From the NCBI GenBank assembly GCA_013816855.1, contig JACDDT010000006.1, positions 1-59,642 of the forward strand: a DNA stretch of 59,642 nt. Direction: 5' to 3'. The stretch comes from Gemmatimonadaceae bacterium (lineage in GTDB: Bacteria; Gemmatimonadota; Gemmatimonadetes; Gemmatimonadales; Gemmatimonadaceae). Under the pieces are notes generated by a model that worked only from the letters and a program-made list of their open reading frames with translations, was not told where the DNA came from and made no database searches. The translations under genes were made by a program, and so were the position numbers. Below, one piece after another: positions 49,530 to 57,122 of this stretch. Positions within the stretch are counted from its first letter, which is position 1. Each line of letters opens with the position of its first letter.

Positions 49530-50798
49530 ATGTCACGCGGACCGTTGCCAGGATTCAGGGATTTTTATCCCGAGCAGCTCGCCGAGCGCGCTTATATAAC
49601 CGGCGTGTGGCGTGACATAGCGAGACGATTCGCCTTCGTTGAGTACGACGGCCCCCCGCTGGAAACTCTCGAGCTGTATACGCGGAAGAGCGGCGAAGAG
49701 ATCGTCGGGCAGCTTTACAACTTCACGGACAAGGGCGACCGCGAAGTTGCTCTTCGCCCGGAGATGACGCCGACGTTGGCGCGAATGGTGGCGGCGAAAG
49801 CAAACGCTCTCAGAAAGCCCGTGCGCTGGTTTTCCATTCCACAGCTCTTTCGATATGAGCGCCAACAGAAGGGAAGACTGCGCGAGCATTTTCAGCTCAA
49901 CGTAGACATACTCGGCGAGCCCGGCGTCACGGCGGATGCAGAACTCCTCGCCGTCGCAATCGAAATCATGCGCGCATACGGGCTTGGGCCGAAGGATGTT
50001 CGCGCTCGCGTCTCGGATCGCCGTCTTCTGAACGCGCTCCTCACCTCCGCCGGTGTGAAGGCAGACCAGCTCGGCCCCGTTTACGCGGCGATCGATAAAC
50101 TTGGCCGCGAGCCATTGGAAGTGACACGTGAAAAATGGCTAAAGGCAACGGGCGATGAAGATGTCGCGATACGTCTTGAACAAACGATCCTACAAAAGGA
50201 TTTCGGCAAGCTGCGCGCGACTCCTGAAATGGGAGCAGATGTTCACACGGCGATGGAGGAGTTCGGAAAGTACCTCGAGCTTCTCGACGCGCTCGGTGTG
50301 CGAGAATGGGTGGACTTCGATCTCTCTATAGTGCGCGGACTCGCTTATTATACGGGAACTGTTTTCGAGCTGTTCGATGCGAGCGGTGAGTTCCGCGCGA
50401 TCTGCGGCGGCGGACGCTACGACGATCTCCTCGATGCGATTGGCGGAGTGTCGATGCCTGCGCTGGGGTTCGGAATGGGCGACGTGGTGATCGGAGAGCT
50501 GCTCCGTGCCCGCGGCCTCATGCGCCGAAACGAAATCGGTCCGGATTACTGGATCGCATCGGATTCCGAAAAGCTGCTGTCGAAGGTGATGCAGGTAGCC
50601 TCGCGGGTGCGTGCGGCGGGGAAAAGCGCCGAATATTCGCTCCGCTTGCAAACGCTCTCGCGTCAAATGAAGACTGCGTCGTCCGCGGGCGCGCGAGAAG
50701 TGATCATCGTCGCGGCGGACGAAGCAGTTGCCGTCAAGAATCTTGCAGACGGCTCGGAGAAAAGACTGACACTTAACGAACTTATCGCATCGCTTTGA
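49530..50798 (+). CDS. hisS: Histidyl-tRNA synthetase
   Basis: HisRS is a class II enzyme. [13 protein letters not shown] at the start, motif 2 [30 protein letters not shown] and the histidine A loop [14 protein letters not shown] (about 271-284) identify it. A C-terminal anticodon domain of about 100 residues follows. Length is 422. ATG 49530 has no Shine-Dalgarno sequence and sits behind a TAGCTT element. proS follows seven bases later. Confidence 0.96.
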
Positions 50799-55594: not shown

Positions 55595-56047
55595 CTAGAC
55601 TCCCTTCTCCTTCAGCAGCTCCATGAATTCAGCGGGCTGCGCGAGCTTGAGCAGTCGCTCTGGAACGTCCGCCTCCTTGCTGAACTGAGCAATCTTCCCC
55701 AGCACGGGCAGATATTGGTTCGAGACTTCGAGCGGCGGCGCGACAATGAGAAAGAAAAAATTCACCGGCTTCTCATCGATCGCGGTGAAATCGAGTCCGT
55801 TCGTTTTCCTGCCGAATGCGACACGCAGCTTTGAAACGACGAGCGAGCGGCAGTGTGGAATGGCGATGCCACGGCCAATACCGGTTGAGCCAAGGTTTTC
55901 ACGCCGCTTCAGCATCTTGAATAGCATGCCTTCGGACTTGTCGTCCAAGCCGAGGAGGCCGATGAGCTCTTTAAGAACGTCGTCCTTCGTTGTGCCCTCT
56001 AGCTCGAGCTTAACGGCATCTTCCGAAAAAAAATCGCGTAGCTCCAT
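55595..56047 (-). CDS. PTS EIIA-Ntr-like protein (PtsN)
   Basis: This 150-residue EIIA domain is of the fructose/nitrogen type. The phosphorylated histidine is His65 in GIAIPHCR. Related proteins receive phosphate from PtsP/NPr and regulate nitrogen, potassium and stress pathways, and do not move sugar. No other PTS gene is in view. It is transcribed from a consensus-like promoter that ends six bases before its ATG, divergent from dus. Confidence 0.88.
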   Translation of the reverse strand: MELRDFFSEDAVKLELEGTTKDDVLKELIGLLGLDDKSEGMLFKMLKRRENLGSTGIGRGIAIPHCRSLVVSKLRVAFGRKTNGLDFTAIDEKPVNFFFLIVAPPLEVSNQYLPVLGKIAQFSKEADVPERLLKLAQPAEFMELLKEKGV

Positions 56048-56053
56048 TTCGCC

Positions 56054-56082
56054 AAGTTACCCGCGTCATCGGGCAGTGTCAA
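56054..56082 (-). promoter_or_regulatory. Consensus-like promoter of the ptsN-like gene
   Basis: Read on the minus strand: TTGACA (56077-56082), a 17-base spacer, TAACTT (56054-56059), then six bases to the ATG. The -35 is a perfect consensus and the spacer is ideal. Transcription should begin at or very near the start codon. No Shine-Dalgarno sequence is present. Confidence 0.8.
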
Positions 56083-56091
56083 ACGGTGTCG

Positions 56092-56120
56092 TTGCAAGCA
56101 CTTGAGAGCGTACTTAGCTT
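56092..56120 (+). promoter_or_regulatory. Predicted dus promoter
   Basis: TTGCAA (56092-56097), a 17-base spacer and TAGCTT (56115-56120), ending six bases before the GTG. It is back to back with the ptsN promoter; the two -35 elements are only nine bases apart. Confidence 0.7.
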
Positions 56121-56126
56121 CCAAAT

Positions 56127-57122
56127 GTGAACCGTTTCCCCTACAAAGTAGACGCGACTGTTCCGCTCTACCTCGCCCCGATGGCCGGTGTATCGGAGTC
56201 GCCTTTCCGGCGACTCTGCCGCCGCTTTGGCGCCGACGTGGTGGTGACGGAGTTCCTCTCCGCCGAAGGCATCCGAAGGGAGAACGCGGCGACGCTCGAC
56301 AAGCTGCGATTTGGAAGCGACGAGCGACCGATCGGGGTCCAGATTTTCGGCGCGGACCCCGAGGCTATGGGGGATGCGGCGCGTCTCGTAACGGATGTCT
56401 TCGGGCCAGAGTTCATTGACATCAACTTCGGCTGTCCTGTCAAGAAAGTTGTGCGCCGGAACGGTGGTTCTGGCTGCCTAAAGGATCTCGATCTCGTCGA
56501 GAGAGTGATCAAGGCGGTTTCCGCCGCGACGCCGCTGCCGGTGACGGTGAAGATCCGCAGCGGCTGGAGCGAAGAGATGCGCGACCCCGTGAAAATCGGT
56601 TTGCGCTGTCAGGATGCCGGCGCACGCGCCCTCGCTCTGCACCCGCGCACGCGCACGCAGATGTACAGCGGCGCCGCCCGCTGGGAGGAGATCGCGCTGC
56701 TCGTTGACGCGCTCGAGATTCCGGTGATCGGCAACGGCGACATCAAGAACGCCGAGGACGCTGCGAAGATGCAGAAGCAAACGGGATGCGCGGCGGTGAT
56801 GATCGGCCGGGGCGCTTTCGGACAGCCGTGGATCTTCGATCAGACGCGCGCGCTGCTCGACGGAAAGCCGAAGCCGGAAGCACCGCCGCTAGGGCGCAGA
56901 TTCGAAATCGCGCTCGAGCATGCGAAGATGGCCGAGGAGTATGAGAATGATCCACGTGGCGCCGCCATCGAATTTCGGAAGCACCTTGGCTGGTACGTCA
57001 AAGGCCTGCACAATTCCGCTGACCTCAGAAAAAAGCTGCACGCGGTGGATTCATTCGCCGAAGTGGAAGGTATTTTCCGCGAGTATTTGGTCACGGACGG
57101 GGCGCTGCAATCGGCAGCTTAA
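56127..57122 (+). CDS. tRNA-dihydrouridine synthase
   Basis: Dus enzymes reduce uridine in the tRNA D-loop with FMN and NADPH. Family motifs are APMAGVSESPFRRL, the catalytic Cys103 in DINFGCPVKKVVRRNGGSGCL, VKIRSGW, and the FMN-binding VIGNGDIKNAEDA and MIGRGAFGQPWIF. Length is 331, as in the DusB group. The GTG start has no Shine-Dalgarno sequence and follows a TAGCTT element. An ATG at 56125 is followed directly by a stop. I leave the subtype symbol open. Confidence 0.93.
   Translation: MNRFPYKVDATVPLYLAPMAGVSESPFRRLCRRFGADVVVTEFLSAEGIRRENAATLDKLRFGSDERPIGVQIFGADPEAMGDAARLVTDVFGPEFIDINFGCPVKKVVRRNGGSGCLKDLDLVERVIKAVSAATPLPVTVKIRSGWSEEMRDPVKIGLRCQDAGARALALHPRTRTQMYSGAARWEEIALLVDALEIPVIGNGDIKNAEDAAKMQKQTGCAAVMIGRGAFGQPWIFDQTRALLDGKPKPEAPPLGRRFEIALEHAKMAEEYENDPRGAAIEFRKHLGWYVKGLHNSADLRKKLHAVDSFAEVEGIFREYLVTDGALQSAA

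Follow-up and report, generated by a model that had tools for sequence, protein, structure and literature searches.

Leaderless genes have been marked in silico in many phyla by a TAnnnT motif some 12 bp ahead of the start codon (PMC3160421). The survey of Zheng et al. (2011) does not name Gemmatimonadota (PMC3160421), and the literature that we searched, which covers the subject in part, gave no report of leaderless genes in that phylum. In Mycobacterium tuberculosis, prpD (Rv1130) and Rv1129c form a divergent leaderless pair, as seen by 5'-end sequencing (Cortes et al. 2013, PMC3898074), and closely placed divergent promoters are called common in the same transcriptome (PMC3898074). Supercoiling coupling is a known interaction of back-to-back promoters (PMC4469952).

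Here we analyse the 79-bp intergenic region (56048-56126) between divergent ptsN-like and dus coding sequences, in a window of 59,642 nucleotides that forms one contig of a Gemmatimonadaceae draft assembly; all named relatives recovered by a search with the dus protein were Gemmatimonadetes/Gemmatimonadaceae. As in the TA-led genes of Zheng et al. 2011 (PMC3160421), the first T of the -10 element lies 12 bp before the start codon of both genes, the leaderless state is deduced, and that state differs between related genomes. Unlike the TA-led genes (PMC3160421), the -10 element here has the form TAnnTT, a good -35 element is present and two such genes stand back to back. We propose, at a probability of about 0.82, that the region carries back-to-back promoters of the primary sigma factor with a lineage-specific TAnnTT -10 element, that both genes yield leaderless mRNAs, and that this state is old in dus and labile in ptsN.

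Promoter elements of the intergenic region

The dus product is identified as DusB by TIGR00737 (339.9 bits against a cut-off of 293.3) and also matches PF01207. The product of the ptsN-like gene scores above the Pfam cut-off for the broad family PF00359 (E=2.1e-27) and for that model only: it reaches 65.3 bits against a cut-off of 138.7 for PtsN (TIGR01419) and stays below the cut-off of the FruA NCBIfam model. The features of the locus are as follows.

55595-56047, minus strand: ptsN-like gene, encoding a PTS EIIA type-2 protein of 150 aa, with its ATG at 56047
56048-56053, minus strand: 6 nt from the ptsN -10 element to the ATG; predicted start site, the A of the ATG (56047)
56059-56054, minus strand: ptsN -10 element, TAACTT, which holds the in-frame stop codon TAA
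56060-56076, minus strand: ptsN spacer of 17 bp; its sequence varies widely among relatives, nearly all of which keep a length of 17 or 18 bp
56082-56077, minus strand: ptsN -35 element, TTGACA, with a TTGAC core nearly invariant within the family
56083-56091, unstranded: gap of 9 bp between the two -35 elements
56092-56097, plus strand: dus -35 element, TTGCAA, of which TTGC is near invariant in relatives
56098-56114, plus strand: dus spacer of 17 bp; the initial GCACTTG is conserved in the genus and the TT at 56102-56103 in the family
56115-56120, plus strand: dus -10 element, TAGCTT, which holds the in-frame stop codon TAG and is of the same type as in tRNA promoters
56121-56126, plus strand: 6 nt from the dus -10 element to the GTG; predicted start site, the G of the GTG (56127)
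56127-57122, plus strand: dusB, tRNA dihydrouridine synthase, 331 aa, GTG start

The hexamers, the 17-bp spacers, the 6-nt start distances and the 9-bp gap of the original prediction are all exact on direct reading, and the region contains a complete promoter on each strand, the two -35 ends facing each other. The dus -35 element matches TTGACA at four of six positions. Read in frame, the -10 elements run into the genes as TAA CTT GGC GAA ATG (ptsN) and TAG CTT CCA AAT GTG (dus). Because each -10 element contains a stop codon, neither gene can have a start codon further upstream than its own -10 element and, if the promoters are used, the leader can be at most a few nucleotides long.

The predicted transcription starts of both genes were placed by the standard spacing from -10 to +1. 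Since each -10 element ends 6 nt ahead of the start codon, transcription is expected to start on the first base of that codon. The region would thus act as two housekeeping promoters, read by the primary sigma factor through TAnnTT elements, and the resulting mRNAs would load ribosomes directly, with no Shine-Dalgarno pairing. As only 6 nt follow each -10 element, no Shine-Dalgarno sequence lies between either predicted transcription start and its start codon. From this layout we infer the exact start sites, the leaderless translation and the sigma factor; a start site a few nucleotides downstream, or a promoter further upstream, may be used instead.

The original prediction had called both promoters full. 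This is borne out against the -10 consensus of the lineage itself and fails against TATAAT, and a scan with a TATAAT-type consensus flagged neither the ptsN nor the dus promoter because TAACTT and TAGCTT each match it at only three of six positions. Regions upstream of tRNA genes (L136-L195), where a promoter is compulsory, served as an independent set. Within the two main position bins, TAnnTT was present as the -10 element in 11 of 25 regions of this genome and 9 of 25 of a sister genome, against a single TAnnAT in the same bins of both genomes together; the variants found at the expected place were TAGCTT, TAACTT, TACTTT and TATCTT. As tRNA genes use TAnnTT, TAACTT and TAGCTT are good -10 elements for this lineage, and the TATAAT scan was dropped as a test of these promoters. 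The primary -10 element of the lineage thus appears, from these comparisons, to be TAnnTT and not TATAAT, in which case standard promoter scans of Gemmatimonadota would miss most promoters.

Genome-wide counts, with mechanically called gene starts, cover about 446 kb of the window genome and 400 kb of a sister genome (G011). In this genome a TAnnTT lies 5-8 nt ahead of 21 of 317 sampled starts (shuffle mean, 1.8), and the full arrangement TTG-N19..21-TAnnTT-N5..8-start, with the TTG at 16-18 bp spacing, precedes 6 of the 317 (mean of dinucleotide shuffles, 0.1), two of the six being ptsN and dus. The corresponding counts in the sister genome are 7 and 2 of 301 starts. Starts that look leaderless are therefore about 6% of those sampled here and about 2% of those in the sister genome, which would make leaderless initiation a minority mode. 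Among the 35 divergent pairs less than 400 bp apart in the sampled genome, ptsN/dus is the sole pair in which both genes are TA-led, and no such pair was present in the 400 kb of the sister genome; the description of this locus as the cleanest case for leaderless initiation thus stands for the sampled genome.

Within the window, five further plus-strand starts (1438, 6006, 7135, 47377 and 49530) have a TAnnTT 6-7 nt upstream, and their products resemble, by eye, an MCE/MlaD protein, HemW, HrcA, AccD and HisS; of these five only the HisS-like gene at 49530 has a TTG at -35.

Conservation of the promoters and turnover of the ptsN leader

Whole-genome searches and genome contigs yielded 113 distinct ptsN/dus intergenic regions from relatives, in which promoters were called as the best pair of TTG and TAnnnT, with some freedom on the ptsN side, for which no distance to the start is set. 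Of the 113 regions, 104 retain the dus promoter, the calling rule finding none in the remaining nine or so, and 108 retain the ptsN promoter. A stricter TTG-TAnnTT pattern still recovers the dus promoter from 93 of 110 homologous regions, where mononucleotide shuffles give 0.1 on average. Information content peaks on the four hexamers and drops in the distal spacers and the leaders. Alignment of the relatives, which the original prediction had proposed as a check, shows both promoters and their spacing kept, and the hexamers persist in close relatives.

In 102 of the 104 regions with a dus promoter, the -10 element ends 5-9 nt before the dus start, most often 6-7 nt. The 8-9 nt seen in some relatives could mean leaders of 1-3 nt. 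Across the order, dus is most economically read as leaderless, and the dus promoter with its predicted leaderless start is, by this comparison, old, stable and order-wide. One relative (L021) has its dus promoter displaced by a long insertion with repeated sequence, and there ptsN is leaderless by its distance (7 nt).

The ptsN leader is bimodal behind the same conserved promoter, measuring 5-12 nt in 29 regions and 23-158 nt in 79. A leaderless start is therefore the prediction for dus almost everywhere, but for ptsN it is not a general trait, most relatives in the family having a longer leader. A protein tree, built by a quick method and with some long branches, gives eight changes of ptsN leader state, at least seven of which are forced by the starred branches. 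On this tree the window genome lies inside a leadered clade and is the only one among its nearest kin with a leaderless ptsN. Alignment with those kin shows that the ptsN leader, about 35-50 nt in close relatives and often with a Shine-Dalgarno-like sequence, is absent from the window genome, which would render ptsN leaderless here as well.

Shine-Dalgarno-like 4-mers, 3-7 nt from the ATG, occur in 42 of the 79 leadered ptsN regions (shuffle mean 24.0, maximum 36). The leaderless ptsN regions have no such excess (8 of 29, shuffle mean 6.2), and in leaderless ptsN and dus regions alike the Shine-Dalgarno signal stays within the shuffle range. Sequence comparison establishes the elements of both promoters, their conservation and the switching of ptsN leader length. 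The ptsN promoter is fixed, and the predicted leaderless state comes and goes between relatives. The ptsN genes would form a natural series, with repeated switches between Shine-Dalgarno-led and leaderless initiation; since the promoter is fixed, the cost or benefit of a leader is directly testable with the same promoter and protein. The comparison is one of draft genomes with mechanically called gene starts, and within that scope it argues strongly for the existence of leaderless genes in Gemmatimonadota.

The 9-bp gap and alternative readings

The gap between the two -35 elements measures 9 bp in 81 of 87 regions within the family; the 15 regions from outside the family range from -15 to 43 bp. 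At ten bases from the first base of the dus -35 element, a TT is found in 84 of 89 family members, and a T occupies the matching place of the ptsN -35 element in 72 of 91; neither is conserved outside the family. In the window the dus promoter has the +10 TT and the ptsN promoter lacks the +10 T. We identified no known element that corresponds to this feature, and by inspection no general -25 TT element of the lineage was evident in the tRNA promoters. In another family of the order (L044, L047 and L049) the two promoters interlock, each -35 element lying inside the 17-bp spacer of the other, and the 43-bp core of L049 is 79% palindromic (AACGTAATGAC...GTCATTACGTT). Together these features suggest a constraint on the core, which may reflect contact between two polymerases, a factor or overlapping upstream contacts. 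Helical phasing is no more than a lead: a few family exceptions of 20 or 41 bp correspond to 9 bp plus about one or about three turns, but such cases are scarce and the gaps seen in other families do not follow the rule.

The original prediction held that two polymerases could hardly bind together and that the genes compete for polymerase, so that the promoters would be mutually exclusive and expression of ptsN and dus coupled. Such competition is a plausible hypothesis, and we consider it rather unlikely. The near invariance of the gap in the family, even though the ptsN leader beside it spans anything from 5 to 158 nt, would agree with it, and in the three relatives with interlocked promoters of the same pair joint occupancy is impossible if both promoters are real. 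In the window, however, the predicted start sites are about 80 bp apart; by standard footprint sizes, the upstream edges of two polymerases would come to lie side by side at about -40, with no core elements shared. A few relatives have gaps of 20-43 bp and have lost neither promoter. Moreover, in Escherichia coli, basal transcription from promoters that share a -10 element is too weak for competition (PMC12825309), and overlapping promoters with start sites 10-23 bp apart compete only on strong activation (PMC12825309).

A family-specific DNA-binding regulator of both genes that sits on the core between and over the two -35 elements, with the 9-bp gap as operator geometry, is less probable still. 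It would account for conservation beyond the hexamers that is confined to the family, namely the gap bases, the GCAnTTG after the dus -35 element and the T at +10 of both promoters. However, the site in its genus form, TTGCAAGCACTT, is essentially a single-copy sequence in each genome of the genus, leaving no visible regulon; dyad symmetry in the window is weak (42%); the ptsN promoter of the window lacks the T at +10; and the dus TT is retained even in relatives whose ptsN promoter lies further off (L018, L020 and L217). A palindromic operator in the window was rejected on the same weak symmetry, and a shared regulon found no support, TTGCAAGCACTT, alone or with GTCAAA, being essentially unique to the ptsN/dus locus. 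The looser pattern TTGCA-N5-TT-TAnnTT was also discarded as a regulon mark, its occurrence being near control rates except at conserved trpS and glnA promoters.

At those genes, assigned by sequence resemblance as tryptophanyl-tRNA synthetase (trpS; L281, L296, L299, L301 and L303, five genomes of the same genus) and glutamine synthetase (glnA; L283, one genome), a TTGCA...TAnnTT arrangement ends 6-7 nt before the ATG, and both are further conserved leaderless candidates.

We are similarly doubtful that the Gemmatimonadaceae ptsN/dus core forms one coupled bidirectional unit, in which the 9-bp gap and the -25 T elements are required by two polymerases, or by one polymerase together with a family-specific factor; if this were true, a tRNA-modifying enzyme would be locked to a PTS regulator in its expression, and a lineage could make the ptsN mRNA leaderless with the promoter untouched. 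Finally, that the hexamers match by chance, with other promoters serving the two genes, is scarcely credible, as the poor agreement of the -10 elements with TATAAT and the silent consensus scan are outweighed by order-wide conservation, the shuffle controls and the same -10 element ahead of tRNA genes.

Comparison with known systems

Our preferred reading, two back-to-back promoters with leaderless mRNAs, has counterparts in several described systems. The M. tuberculosis prpD/Rv1129c pair likewise consists of two divergent genes that are both leaderless, by prediction in the case of ptsN/dus; unlike ptsN/dus, which is housekeeping in type and predicted only, that pair joins a regulator to its target, is induced by starvation and has been mapped. 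The ilvY/ilvC promoters, too, occupy opposite strands and point their -35 ends at each other (PMC4469952), but they are coupled by supercoiling, and any coupling of ptsN/dus is hypothetical. Bidirectional promoters with a shared symmetric -10 element similarly produce divergent mRNAs from short DNA (PMC10268837, PMC12825309), but have a single -10 element and start sites 7-25 bp apart; with separate -10 elements and the far wider spacing of its predicted start sites, ptsN/dus was rejected as a member of this class.

The Bacteroidetes promoters (TTTG / TAnnTTTG, PMC6847099) resemble those described here in the T at -8 and -7 and the A at -11 of the -10 element. They differ in that the promoters of the present lineage have no conserved TG after the hexamer and have a clear TTG(A/C) -35 element, and in that Shine-Dalgarno-like sequences are found here in leadered genes. 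Taken together, the ptsN/dus locus is best viewed, from its sequence and that of its relatives, as a further predicted case of the known leaderless and divergent leaderless genes, to which is added a probable family-specific constraint on the core.
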